Origin: Anaerolineae bacterium
GTDB lineage: Bacteria; Chloroflexota; Anaerolineae; Aggregatilineales; UBA2796
Direction of reading: 5' to 3'
Length of the DNA: 64,000 nucleotides
NCBI GenBank assembly: GCA_019637555.1
Contig: JAHBVK010000002.1
Coordinates: forward strand, 124,001-188,000
Positions 1,988 through 10,826 of this stretch are shown here, piece by piece. The notes under the pieces were generated by a model that ran no database searches, was not told where the DNA came from, and was given only the letters and a program-made list of their open reading frames with translations. The translations under genes were made by a program, and so were the position numbers. Each line of letters begins with the position of its first letter. Within the stretch, counting starts at the first letter, position 1.

Positions 1988-3211
1988 GTGAATGACGGGC
2001 AAAAACAAGCATTTTTACGCCAAGCATTAGAGACAGGGCAGGGCATCGTCCGCCTGATGCCGACATGGGTTCCGCGCGTGTTCTGCGTGCCGGGACGCCG
2101 TTTGCGCTTGCACACGCAAGATTTGTATGCCTTCGGCGCACATCGCGGCGGCATTGATGAACGCTGGTTCTCCTCCACCACCAAAGCGGATAACGGTCCG
2201 CACACGCTGCCCGATGAGGGCTTGAGCTACATCTACGGCACTGACGGCGAAAAAGTCACGCTGCAAGATGGCATCGGGCTGATGGGCGCTGATTTCATCG
2301 GTGCGGCAGCCATGCAGCAGTACGGCGGTTGGGTGATGTATAGCAAGTTCTTCGACAATATGTATCCGCTGCCACATCACTTGCATCAGAGCGATGAGAA
2401 AGCCGCCGATGTCGGGCGTGTGGGCAAGCCGGAAGCGTACTTTTTCCCCTCACAGTACAACTTCGCGCTGAATACGTTCCCCTACACCTTCTTCGGCTTT
2501 GAACCCGGCACCACCACCGATCAGGTGATCGACTGCTTGAAGCGGTGGGATCAGGGCGATAACGAAATTCTGAGCATGTCCAAGGCAGATCGCTTGCAAA
2601 TAGGCACGGGCTGGTACGTCCCACCGGGCATTTTGCACGCGCCGGGGACGCTGTGTACCTATGAGCCGCAGCGTGCCAGCGACGTGTTCTCGATGTGGCA
2701 GTCACTGATCGCAGATTATCAGGTGGTGGATCGCGCTATGCTGGTCAAGGACGTGCCGCAGGATAAGTGGTACGACTATGACTATCTGCTCTCGCTGCTC
2801 GATTGGGACGCCAACATCGATCCTGAGTTCAAGAAGCATTACCATCTGACGCCGCGACCAGCGGGCGATCCGAAAGCGGCGCAAGAGGCAGGCTACAACG
2901 AACAGTGGATCGTTTACGGCGCGGAGTGGTTCAGCGCCAAAGAACTGACCGTTCAACCCGGACGCACGGTGACCATCCGCGACGCGGGCGCTTACGGTGC
3001 GATCACCATGCAGGGCTATGGGCGCTTCGGCGCACATCCGATCTCCGCGCCGTCACTAATCCGCTTCGGGCAGATGACCGAGGATGAGTTCTTCGTCACC
3101 TATGAGGCGGCACAGCGCGGCGTCACCATCACCAACCTGAGCAGCAGCGAACCGCTGGTGATCCTCAAGCACTTCAATCCCGGCAACCCTGAGATGCCGA
3201 AAATGGGATAG
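1988..3211 (+). CDS. Cupin protein of the type I mannose-6-phosphate isomerase type
   Basis: 407 residues, starting at GTG 1988 behind a clear ribosome site (AAGGAG, 9 bases upstream). The core resembles phosphomannose isomerase: a His-rich metal motif (YPLPHHLHQSDE, His130/131/133), then GKPEAYFF (Glu149, equivalent to the KTECWYI glutamate) and a distal metal His in GWYVPPGILHAPG (His217) followed by EPQRASD, as in the EiQqxSD signature. These would supply a Zn site in the cupin barrel. Overall length and the C-terminal cupin-like half differ from classical ManA, so the sugar substrate is uncertain; it may isomerise another aldose or keto-sugar. It stands alone between repeats. Confidence 0.65.
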   Translation: MNDGQKQAFLRQALETGQGIVRLMPTWVPRVFCVPGRRLRLHTQDLYAFGAHRGGIDERWFSSTTKADNGPHTLPDEGLSYIYGTDGEKVTLQDGIGLMGADFIGAAAMQQYGGWVMYSKFFDNMYPLPHHLHQSDEKAADVGRVGKPEAYFFPSQYNFALNTFPYTFFGFEPGTTTDQVIDCLKRWDQGDNEILSMSKADRLQIGTGWYVPPGILHAPGTLCTYEPQRASDVFSMWQSLIADYQVVDRAMLVKDVPQDKWYDYDYLLSLLDWDANIDPEFKKHYHLTPRPAGDPKAAQEAGYNEQWIVYGAEWFSAKELTVQPGRTVTIRDAGAYGAITMQGYGRFGAHPISAPSLIRFGQMTEDEFFVTYEAAQRGVTITNLSSSEPLVILKHFNPGNPEMPKMG

Positions 3212-7410: not shown

Positions 7411-9090
7411 ATGCTGAATGACGATTTACGCAGTCGTATTGCTCACAAACTGATCGATCTCTATGGTGCGGAAAGCGGCGCGGCGCTGAATACCCGCCTG
7501 ATCGCGCTGCTGGAGCAGTCTAAGGTAGCGCCTCAACAACAGTTGTGGAGCCAAACCGATGCCGTCGTGATCTGCTACGCCGACCACCTGCACCGTGACG
7601 ATGGCACGCAGACTCCGCTGGCGGCGCTGCATGACTTTCTCGCCCGCCATTGTCAAGATGCTGTAAGTACCGTCCACCTATTGCCCTTCTATCCATATAC
7701 CTCCGATGATGGCTTCTCGGTCAGCGATTACCGCGCCGTCAATGCCGAGGCGGGTACATGGGCGGATGTCGCCGCGCTGCAAGCCACCTTCAAGCTGATG
7801 TTCGATCTGGTGATCAACCACACGTCGGTATCACATGACTGGTTTCAGGCGTTCCTGCGAGACGAAGCACCTTACAACGACTACTACATCGCGCTCGATC
7901 CCGCCACTGATGTGTCGCAGGTCACCCGTCCGCGCACCCATCCGCTGCTGACACCGTTCGAGACGCGGGCGGGCATCCGCTACGTGTGGACGACCTTCAG
8001 CGAGGATCAAGTCGATCTCAACTTCAGCCATCCTGACGTGCTGCTGGAGATGATCGAGGTGCTGCTGTTCTACATCGAACGCGGGGCGCAGATCATCCGC
8101 TTGGATGCCATTGCTTACTTGTGGAAAGAGATCGGCACCACCTGCATCCATCTACCGCAGACGCATGAGGTGGTGCGCTTATTCCGCGATGTGCTGGAAT
8201 CCGTCGCGCCCAACGTGCTGCTGTTGACCGAGACCAATGTGCCGCACGACGAGAATATGTCTTACTTCGGAGATGGCACCGATGAAGCGCAGATGATCTA
8301 TAACTTCGCGCTGCCGCCGCTGCTCGTGCACACGCTGCAAACAGGCGACGCCAATGCGCTGACCAGTTGGGCGGATTCGCTGGAACTGCCCTCCGAGCAA
8401 ACCACCTTCTTCAACTTCACCGCTTCACATGATGGCATCGGCGTGCGTCCTGCTACCGGACTGCTGACGCCGGAACAGATTACCCGGATGATCGAGCGGG
8501 TGAAAGCGCACGGGGGGCGCATCTCCGAGAAGCGCAATGCCGACGGCAGCACCAGCCCTTACGAGATGAACATCGTCTATTTCGATGCACTCTCCGCGCC
8601 GGATGATCCGCTGGCAGTAGATCGCTTTATCTGCTCGCAGGCGATCATGCTGGCACTGCAAGGCATCCCCGGTATTTATCTGCACAGCTTACTGGGATCG
8701 CGCAACTGGCAGGAAGGCGTCGAGGAAACCGGACGCGCGCGCAGCATCAATCGGCAGAAGCTAGATGTGGAGACGTTGGAAGCGGAGTTGAAGGAAGCGG
8801 GATCGATCCGCGCACGGGTATTCAGCCGCTACCTCGATCTGCTGAAGCAGCGGCGGAGCAATCCCGCGTTTCATCCCAACGCCAACCAGCGCGTGCTGTA
8901 CGTAGGAACAAGCATCTTTGCGCTGGAACGCACCGCGTTGGATGGCAGTCAGCGGGCGCTTTGCTTGCACAACGTCCGCGCGCAGGATGTCACGGTGGTG
9001 CTGCCAAGTGGTCCGCGCACGCTAAAGGCTTATGAGGTCGCTTGGCTGTTCACCTCGGATACTGCGCCAGTGCCAGCGCCGTCGGTGTAG
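7411..9090 (+). CDS. GH13_18 sugar phosphorylase, probable glucosylglycerate phosphorylase
   Basis: 559 residues, matching the length and recalled wording of E. coli YcjM, a glucosylglycerate phosphorylase, across HLLPFYP-SDDGFSV, RPR-HPLLTPF, WTTFSEDQVDLN, TETNVPH and FNF-ASHDGIG. Family catalytic residues are visible: nucleophile Asp232 (IRLDAIAYLWK), acid/base Glu274 (LLTETNVPH) and the transition-state Asp341 (ASHDGIG). GH13_18 also includes sucrose and sucrose-6-phosphate phosphorylases, so the acceptor is inferred. The enzyme would split a glucoside with phosphate to glucose-1-phosphate in the cytoplasm. It converges on a GH63-like gene, sharing 61 bp at the 3' ends. Confidence 0.82.
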   Translation: MLNDDLRSRIAHKLIDLYGAESGAALNTRLIALLEQSKVAPQQQLWSQTDAVVICYADHLHRDDGTQTPLAALHDFLARHCQDAVSTVHLLPFYPYTSDDGFSVSDYRAVNAEAGTWADVAALQATFKLMFDLVINHTSVSHDWFQAFLRDEAPYNDYYIALDPATDVSQVTRPRTHPLLTPFETRAGIRYVWTTFSEDQVDLNFSHPDVLLEMIEVLLFYIERGAQIIRLDAIAYLWKEIGTTCIHLPQTHEVVRLFRDVLESVAPNVLLLTETNVPHDENMSYFGDGTDEAQMIYNFALPPLLVHTLQTGDANALTSWADSLELPSEQTTFFNFTASHDGIGVRPATGLLTPEQITRMIERVKAHGGRISEKRNADGSTSPYEMNIVYFDALSAPDDPLAVDRFICSQAIMLALQGIPGIYLHSLLGSRNWQEGVEETGRARSINRQKLDVETLEAELKEAGSIRARVFSRYLDLLKQRRSNPAFHPNANQRVLYVGTSIFALERTALDGSQRALCLHNVRAQDVTVVLPSGPRTLKAYEVAWLFTSDTAPVPAPSV

Positions 9091-10826
9091 CTGCGAGTCT
9101 CTTGAATTGCCAGATCGATGAACACCGCCGACGACCAGCCGAAGATCGGCGCGGCTTTGGGCGGGCGCGTACCATCCAGCGGGTTGTAATACTCGTAGAT
9201 ATCCTTGTGGCTCTGAATCGTCCGCAAGGTGCTGCGGCGCAATTCGCCCGCTAGATCGACGCGCCCGACCCGCGTTAGCGCCTCCACGAATAGATGGTTG
9301 ATGTTGGGCCACATCGGACCGCGCCACATCTTGTTGCCGTCGAACTTGGGATCGTTGATGGCGACACTGGGGATCTTGTGCTCCGTCCAGAACTGCTGTG
9401 GATCGGTCAGGCGGGCGATCAGGCGCTTTGCCATCTCCTCCGGCACCCGTCCGGTGATCAGCGGCAGTAAACTGAACGGGGTCATCACATCGACGGTCTT
9501 GTTCAGATGCAGCGACTTAAATATGCCGAGTTTGTCGTCCCAGAGCACGTCGGTCATCTGCTTAGCACGATCATTCGCCTCCTGTAAAAACTTCGCTGCT
9601 GCCGCGCCATCCCCGATCAAGGAGGCAATCCGCGCCAGCGATTCGCTCTGCAAGCACAGGTAGGTATTCAGATCAGGCGCGACGACGGGCATCCCATCAT
9701 CCCACAACGGGCTGTCATCCAAGCCGGAGGAGAAAGGATGGCGGTACTCGCATAAGCCGCAGTCGTTGCGGTTGTCGCGCAGCCACCAGTCATGCCAGCG
9801 GATGATCGGCTCGTAGACTTCTTCTAAGAAATCCAGATGACCGGAGTGATCGTACAATTTCAGCGCTGCCCACGCGATCAAGGGTGGTTTGGTCACATCC
9901 GCTTCGACGGGGAAATTGAGGCGGCGTACCAAGCCTTCATCATGGATCGCATCTGGCAGCATCCCATCTTCACGCTGATGATCCAGTACGATGCGGATTT
10001 GATCCTCCGCGAGGTTAGTGTCAATATGGCGGTAAGCCAGCGCGTGGAAGAATTGATCCCACTGCCACACACCGATATAGTGAATCTTGGAGGGAACGAG
10101 CGCTTCGCGGGTGAAGAAATAACGCTGGTTGAGTAAGCCCGCCCGCATGATCCACCATGCGTACAAATACTGCTCCATGTACTCATCGAGCACGGGCGGC
10201 GCGGCGTTGAACCACGTCTCCCACGTAAGTCGGTTGCGCTCGATCAGTGCATCGGCGGTAGGCAGCGAACGGTTGAAGCCCAAGCGCGGAGTCACATTGA
10301 GCAGCAGCGTATCACCCTCTTGCGCCTGTAGCTGCACACTGACGCGGATGCGTCCCTTATCTGCTTCCAAGACGGTTAGTTTGTTGCTCAGGATTTCAGC
10401 GGCAGTGGTGTAAGCGATGTTGCGCTTACCGTGCATCGTGCCGCCGCGCCTATCCGTGCCACCCGATTCGCCCAGCGCCTGAAACTCGAAACCGCATTTG
10501 CCAGCGGGCAGGCGCACTAGCATTGTCTCCACATCAGCAAAGGTCCAGCCGAACATACCCGCCGCTGTGCTCAACTTGACCACATGCGGATACGTATCCA
10601 CCTCAAAGTCCAGCGGATTGCCTTCGCTGTCCAGAAAACGAAACTTCTCGATGATGGGCGGGCGCTGGCGATAATGCCCGTACTCGTTTTGCCACTTCTC
10701 CCACCGTTCCGCCAAGCGCACACTGAGGTATTGCCCCTCACGGAATAGCAGCAGCCGCGATCCCCGATCCGTGTATGGTACTGCCACCAGATCGATGCGA
10801 TTGTGTAGTCGTTCGAGGGAAGTCAT
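9030..10826 (-). CDS. GH63-like glycoside hydrolase (possible mannosyl/glucosylglycerate hydrolase or trehalase-like)
   Basis: 598 residues. The C-terminal two thirds form an (alpha/alpha)6-type catalytic domain with GVWQWDQFFHALAYRHID, SGLDDSPLWDDG, MWRGPMWPNINHLFVEAL and YYNPLDGTRPPKAAPIFGWSSAVFIDL, wording typical of the GH63/GH37 group. The paired acids are probably Asp in WQWDQF and Glu in EYYNPLDG or nearby. The N-terminal ~220 residues look like a beta-sandwich. Bacterial GH63 members include hydrolases of mannosylglycerate and glucosylglycerate, which would fit the neighbouring phosphorylase, but amylo-glucosidase activity is equally possible. No signal peptide, so cytoplasmic. The tail runs 61 bp into the convergent gene. 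Confidence 0.72.
   Translation of the reverse strand: MTSLERLHNRIDLVAVPYTDRGSRLLLFREGQYLSVRLAERWEKWQNEYGHYRQRPPIIEKFRFLDSEGNPLDFEVDTYPHVVKLSTAAGMFGWTFADVETMLVRLPAGKCGFEFQALGESGGTDRRGGTMHGKRNIAYTTAAEILSNKLTVLEADKGRIRVSVQLQAQEGDTLLLNVTPRLGFNRSLPTADALIERNRLTWETWFNAAPPVLDEYMEQYLYAWWIMRAGLLNQRYFFTREALVPSKIHYIGVWQWDQFFHALAYRHIDTNLAEDQIRIVLDHQREDGMLPDAIHDEGLVRRLNFPVEADVTKPPLIAWAALKLYDHSGHLDFLEEVYEPIIRWHDWWLRDNRNDCGLCEYRHPFSSGLDDSPLWDDGMPVVAPDLNTYLCLQSESLARIASLIGDGAAAAKFLQEANDRAKQMTDVLWDDKLGIFKSLHLNKTVDVMTPFSLLPLITGRVPEEMAKRLIARLTDPQQFWTEHKIPSVAINDPKFDGNKMWRGPMWPNINHLFVEALTRVGRVDLAGELRRSTLRTIQSHKDIYEYYNPLDGTRPPKAAPIFGWSSAVFIDLAIQETRSYTDGAGTGAVSEVNSQATS

Follow-up and report, generated by a model that had tools for sequence, protein, structure and literature searches.

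Glucosylglycerate phosphorylase (GGaP) belongs to subfamily 18 of glycoside hydrolase family 13 (GH13_18), and PMC7178133 names the signatures by which it is recognised, the motif (T/S)ETN and, in loop A, a Glu. The loop-A residue is Gln in most other GH13_18 clades, which makes the Glu diagnostic of GGaP, and Asn275 and Glu383 are given in that paper as the specificity residues of the Meiothermus silvanus enzyme. For the hydrolases of mannosylglycerate and glucosylglycerate, a list of substrate-holding residues is found in PMC6608630. Here we compare with these enzymes two proteins encoded in a stretch of 64,000 nucleotides from an Anaerolineae bacterium (contig JAHBVK010000002.1, positions 124,001 to 188,000; the whole stretch is referred to as the window). 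Their open reading frames (ORFs) converge: a GH13_18 protein of 559 residues is encoded at 7411..9090 on the plus strand, and a “long” GH63-like hydrolase of 598 residues at 9030..10826 on the minus strand. A first-pass annotation had described this arrangement correctly and had suggested that both enzymes handle glucosylglycerate. For the phosphorylase our analysis agrees; as to the hydrolase, co-occurrence and gene order support a connection with glucosylglycerate metabolism, but direct hydrolysis of that compound is unsupported.

Sequence evidence makes it very likely that the GH13_18 protein functions as GGaP. As the first-pass annotation had noticed, it resembles this enzyme in both length and similarity, being exactly as long as E. 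coli YcjM and 43% identical to it, and it carries the published signatures. The TETN motif (residues 273-276; 8227..8238, plus strand) contains the predicted acid/base E274 and the specificity Asn N276, and the diagnostic loop-A Glu, E385, lies within SPYEMN (8563..8565, plus strand). In an alignment of 15 sequences that includes YcjM, the motif is invariant, and so are N276 and E385, the counterparts of M. silvanus Asn275 and Glu383, and D232, E274 and D341, which we take to be the GH13 catalytic Asp, Glu and Asp. When this protein was scanned against NCBIfam, no model scored at or above its cutoff; the top-scoring one was sucrose phosphorylase TIGR03852, at 208 bits with a cutoff of 334.4.

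The second protein matches PF22422 (MGH1-like_GH; 251.9 bits, cutoff 27) and PF03200 (GH63; 62.4 bits, cutoff 22.4). Its predicted structure (mean predicted local distance difference test score, pLDDT, 88.7; predicted template modelling score, pTM, 0.89) comprises a strand-rich N-terminal domain (residues ~1-210; 10197..10826, minus strand) and a helical domain identified as catalytic by structural superposition (residues ~213-580; 9087..10190, minus strand). When superimposed using VIA-align, the catalytic domain found its best matches in the Thermus mannosylglycerate hydrolase TtMgH (4wva; Z 42.6, rmsd 1.8, 334 residues aligned, 26% identity) and the mycobacterial glucosylglycerate hydrolase MhGgH (5ont; Z 40.3, rmsd 2.0, 341 aligned), and E. 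coli YgjK aligned over nearly the whole chain, N-terminal domain included (Z 42.3, rmsd 3.5, 545 aligned). Trehalases and one debranching enzyme also superpose on the model, with Z values of 31-39.

By alignment, Asp370 (9717..9719, minus strand) corresponds to the MhGgH catalytic acid Asp182 and Glu545 (9192..9194, minus strand) to its catalytic base Glu419, and we infer an inverting enzyme with these two residues in the same roles. Asp370 is present in all 33 rows of the family alignment and Glu545 in 32, with a gap in L166, the most distant row (30%). We then mapped 15 active-site positions of the Thermus mannosylglycerate hydrolase onto the protein. Nine are kept (the counterparts of Tyr36, Trp40, Trp42, Asp43, Gly180, Asp182, Trp376, Glu419 and Trp436) and six are changed: Tyr88 is replaced by Arg, in a column that is less certain because the surrounding loop is shorter, Gln115 by Lys (K313), Trp177 by Phe and Tyr375 by Met (M500), and Arg216 and Tyr222 fall in gaps, the cap that bears them having been deleted. 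K313 and M500 are found in 32/33 members of the wider family, L166 again being the exception. A 448-residue GH63 protein from the same order (L055), used as a positive control, keeps all 15 positions, and the comparison is thus able to give a positive result. With the cap gone, the acceptor side of the modelled hydrolase should be more open. The glucosylglycerate hydrolase model NF047898 gives the protein 102.7 bits, below its cutoff of 550; since the scores of four short GH63 genes from this bacterial order (149.8-170.1 bits) are likewise too low, this cutoff may be narrow.

We built a maximum-likelihood tree from 38 rows, two of which (inter_L056 and short_L073) are duplicates. The hydrolase family forms a single clade in it (support 100), to which neither the MgH-like proteins nor YgjK, trehalase or debranching enzyme belong; the deep branches are weak (support 31-72) and their order is unresolved. 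Clustering of the protein with trehalases or amylo-glucosidases, which would have spoken against the first-pass annotation, was therefore not what we saw, and in view of the separate clade we reject a trehalase (GH37) or glycogen-debranching identity in spite of the superposition. As far as literature searches show, the clade is uncharacterised. Because 6/15 positions differ, the cap is missing and the family has a clade of its own, the sequence does not support direct hydrolysis of glucosylglycerate by this protein. A second, shorter GH63 group (406-432 residues; L070, L071, L072 and L073) lies at most 9 kb from GGaP in four genomes; by alignment its members keep Gln115 and Tyr375 and lack Tyr88, Arg216 and Tyr222.

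The link to glucosylglycerate comes from the distribution of the family. Each protein was searched for in 61 genomes, namely the window genome and 60 relatives, with full-strength matches and clear fragments counted as presence and with relatedness only partly controlled in the statistics. GH13_18 matches at 31-32% in G003, G004, G053 and G060 were excluded from the GGaP set, and all counts of GGaP, alone or in pairs, are counts among the matches listed. On this basis 21 genomes carry the hydrolase, 24 the gene for glucosyl-3-phosphoglycerate synthase (GpgS) and 44 GGaP. GpgS is present in 19 of the 21 hydrolase carriers and in 5 of the 40 other genomes (19/2/5/35 for both, first-named only, second only and neither; Fisher p 2.4e-9). 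Shuffling within families reached the observed value in 1 of 20000 trials, and the association persists at genus level (9/1/4/27, p 1.8e-5). The presence of GGaP itself is associated with that of an MggS-like GT4 glycosyltransferase (27/17/2/15, p 0.0005) and of a GH125-like protein (25/19/0/17, p 2e-5). From these pairwise counts, the hydrolase goes with GpgS, and the MggS-like and GH125-like proteins go with GGaP. In the relatives, GpgS is a fusion protein of ~604 residues, which with its C-terminal part reaches 370.8 bits on NF010496 (cutoff 262); a second GpgS model picked out these 24 genomes alone, always under its cutoff. As NF010496 gave matches in all 14 control genomes, one of them over the cutoff, we did not accept a weak match as GpgS. 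The N-terminal part of the fusion matches the universal stress protein domain PF00582 (50.1 bits) in L157:12866-14677, with no match in L064:3433-5244.

Gene order points the same way, bearing in mind that gene positions in the relatives are those of mechanically called ORFs, whose overlaps with neighbours may be start-codon artefacts. Both genes are present in 19 genomes; in eight of these, GGaP and the hydrolase are at most 10 kb apart, being adjacent in G000, G001, G024 and G034 and separated by 5-9 kb in G023, G028, G033 and G042. Among six named loci the pair is close in four, in differing relative orientations: side by side in L058-L060, and with LacI and ABC-transporter genes in between in L057. 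L062 is the locus of G001, which is included above, and L061 starts 327 bp before the hydrolase, so that its upstream neighbour is not visible. GpgS lies within ~5 kb of GGaP on the same contig in G017, G023, G028, G033, G042 and G088, and the hydrolase adjoins GpgS in G060, while in G004 the order is hydrolase, GpgS and a second glycosyltransferase, GT4b. In a sample of 200 further genomes from the phylum, the hydrolase family was found at E 1e-90 or better in 12. One of these loci, in G088, packs GGaP, the hydrolase, MggS-like GT4, GT4b and GpgS into 8.5 kb of a single strand, with a 233-residue ORF on the opposite strand between MggS-like GT4 and GT4b. At others of the 12, the hydrolase (cut by the contig end) is found with GT4b and GpgS in G210, GT4b adjoins it in G154 and is next but one in G071, and GGaP is ~3 kb away in G258. 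Outside these 12, in G019, the hydrolase has GT4b and then an OtsA-like GT20 after it, with neither GGaP nor GpgS among the matches listed. The pair recurs in several Chloroflexota families, and in this phylum it is not the rarity that it had been thought to be.

Taken together, these data lead us tentatively to favour, as a reading that falls somewhat short of probable, a scheme in which the two enzymes act in series and not as parallel routes, the hydrolase trimming the outermost sugar off a glycosylated glucosylglycerate before GGaP phosphorolyses what is left. A glycosylated glucosylglycerate would be made by GpgS and a GT4 glycosyltransferase, or imported; the GH63-like enzyme would take off its outer sugar by means of D370 and E545, leaving glucosylglycerate, which GGaP would convert with phosphate to alpha-glucose 1-phosphate and D-glycerate; and the D-glycerate would be taken up by a glycerate kinase encoded elsewhere in the genome. 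A kinase matching PF02595 (430 bits) is indeed encoded on another contig of the window genome. Both are probably intracellular enzymes in the turnover of stress-protecting compatible solutes of the glucosylglycerate type. What the hydrolase cleaves, at which linkage, and in which order the two steps run is what we infer from the pattern as a whole: because the family lacks the cap and most of the glycerate residues, yet travels with GpgS and GT4b, a substrate with one sugar more than glucosylglycerate is the simplest fit. PMC11631117 likewise reads Prochlorococcus transcripts as GGaP serving turnover, and the E. coli cluster of YcjM with the kojibiose phosphorylase YcjT is a parallel case.

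Several observations weigh against this serial scheme. Of a possible GpgS/GpgP pair elsewhere in the genome, the GpgS half was searched for by profile and by sequence, using two GpgS models, and none was detectable in the window genome, which, given that genome's completeness of 94.4% and contamination of 5.33%, is not proof of absence. A MOFRL glycerate kinase was not found there either. The window organism may import the substrate or make it otherwise; its MggS-like GT4, on contig C76, scores 226.5 bits on NF041101 (cutoff 640). Across the 61 genomes, the hydrolase shows a modest association with GGaP (19/2/25/15, p 0.034; reached in 62 of 20000 within-family shuffles), which loses significance when genera are compared (p 0.23); its association with the MggS-like GT4 is negative (5/16/24/16, p 0.014), and that with the GH125-like protein is nil (9/12/16/24, p 1.0). 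Some of the wider phylum contexts also fit poorly. In G172, G065 and G078 (family f9) the hydrolase homologue (~42%) lies between a LacI/sugar ABC transporter and a GH13 gene without TETN, which in G172 (L161) is TreS (825.5 bits, above cutoff) and in G065 and G078 was judged by BLAST and motif only; an OtsA-like GT20 is next or next but one to the hydrolase in L158 and L168; and at 4 of the 12 phylum loci (L164, L165, L166 and L169) none of the partner enzymes looked for is nearby.

Could the two genes simply be chance neighbours without a functional relationship? We consider this very improbable. Being convergent, they do not form one operon in the window, GpgS is not detectable in the window genome, and in 11/19 genomes with both genes the two lie on separate contigs, some of them shorter than 7 kb, a finding that also tells against the serial scheme; set against this is the proximity of the genes in 8/19 genomes and in 4/6 named loci, in varied orientations. 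The contexts with TreS and a transporter, and those with an OtsA-like protein, are in line with a general intracellular alpha-glucosidase acting on small disaccharides, for which proximity to GGaP would reflect shared regulation of stress or solutes. The substrates would then be of the trehalose, kojibiose and nigerose type, as we assume them to be for YgjK, which aligns over nearly the full chain and shares the Lys at the Gln115 position. This explanation is possible but doubtful, in view of the strong co-occurrence with GpgS and the adjacency to GpgS, GT4b or GGaP. Rather unlikely, in our view, is a GH63-like enzyme that itself hydrolyses glucosylglycerate or mannosylglycerate in parallel with phosphorolysis, binding glycerate in another way than the known hydrolases. 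Hydrolases of these very compounds are among its top structural matches, the -1 subsite residues are kept, the family is linked to GpgS and GGaP, and the conserved K313 that replaces Gln115 could bind a carboxylate; however, Tyr88, Gln115, Arg216, Tyr222 and Tyr375 are lost or replaced, Trp177 is Phe, the cap is deleted, the score on NF047898 is far under its cutoff, and the clade is a separate one.

A variant of the scheme, which we regard as improbable, concerns the direction of the phosphorylase. In genomes without GpgS, GGaP might run synthetically, making glucosylglycerate from glucose 1-phosphate and D-glycerate, for glycosylation by the MggS-like GT4 and reversal by a GH63-like or GH125-like hydrolase. 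Among the 27 genomes with both GGaP and the MggS-like GT4, 16 have them at most 600 bp apart, and no GpgS was detected in 12 of these 16 (the GT4 frame contains a stop in G026 and G053). The window genome has GGaP, the hydrolase, the MggS-like GT4 (C76) and a GH125-like gene (C62), with no detectable GpgS, other glucosylglycerate synthases not having been searched for. If true, this would amount to a phosphorylase-based route to a solute of the mannosylglucosylglycerate type.

The 3' ends of the two genes share 61 bp, counting the stop codons (9030..9090), exactly as first noted. The overlap amounts to ~20 final residues of the hydrolase and falls in a tail that was modelled with low confidence (block means 48 and 33) and varies in length, with 54 residues from the EYY motif to the stop in the window protein and 35-50 in 22/22 homologues; for this reason it appears not to be conserved, and a functional role for it is unsupported. 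The same pair in the same-genus genome G001 is also convergent and overlaps by 4 bp. Upstream in the window, a 407-residue ORF (1988-3211, plus strand) matches neither Pfam nor NCBIfam at E 0.1. On contig C62 of the window genome (L120:9303-16902, G000:C62), genes for LacI, a binding protein, two permeases, an ATPase and the GH125-like protein form one cluster, without the GGaP that joins such genes in several relatives. In L080:7906-11427 (G018:C17), a 1173-residue ORF fuses a GH125-like protein to GGaP, near LacI, a binding protein, two permeases and an ATPase, and in L134:8813-12055 (G047:C43) a 1080-residue ORF joins GH125-like and MggS-like GT4 parts next to GGaP. A D-2-hydroxyacid dehydrogenase directly follows GGaP in L078:9701-10741 (G004:C66) and would suit oxidation of released glycerate. 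A TreT-type trehalose synthase was considered for GT4b, but searching solved structures by sequence produced only a weak match, to an inositol-phosphate glycosyltransferase. A 472-residue protein encoded between GpgS and GGaP in genus g12 had no Pfam, NCBIfam or PDB match; its consensus starts with what we read as a signal-peptide-like stretch.

GGaP is already known, and what appears to be new, as far as our searches show, is the GH63-like clade and its link with GGaP and GpgS. We know of no described enzymes that degrade glycosylated glucosylglycerates, and the titles and abstract openings of the literature on mannosylglucosylglycerate name none; the literature listings searched likewise contained no report of a pair of GGaP and a GH63-like protein, or of a link between this clade and GGaP and GpgS. 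If the serial scheme holds, the clade would supply a missing first step in the breakdown of glycosylated glucosylglycerates, in a phylum, the Chloroflexota, that has scarcely been examined for such solutes, little literature joining glucosylglycerate and Chloroflexi. A ready test set is offered by clusters like the one in G088, where five of these genes share a strand.

Compared with the known phosphorylases (YcjM and the M. silvanus enzyme; EC 2.4.1.352), the window GGaP is equal in length to YcjM and has every published signature residue tested; it differs in its setting, since its genome lacks a detectable GpgS and its gene converges on a GH63-like one. The hydrolase shares with TtMgH (TTHA0978) and MhGgH the fold of the catalytic domain (rmsd 1.8 over 334 residues), the catalytic Asp and Glu and several -1 subsite residues, but it has an extra N-terminal domain, lacks the cap, differs at 6/15 positions and falls in a separate clade. 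With E. coli YgjK it has in common the two-domain architecture, over 545 aligned residues, and the Lys of a TKP motif, whereas identity is only ~20% and YgjK lies outside the hydrolase clade, in a tree position of its own that is unresolved. Finally, the E. coli ycj cluster likewise combines a GGaP, YcjM, with an enzyme named for a disaccharide, the kojibiose phosphorylase YcjT, presumably of GH65, kojibiose being an alpha-1,2-diglucoside; there, however, the partner of GGaP is a phosphorylase, and not a GH63-like hydrolase as it is here.

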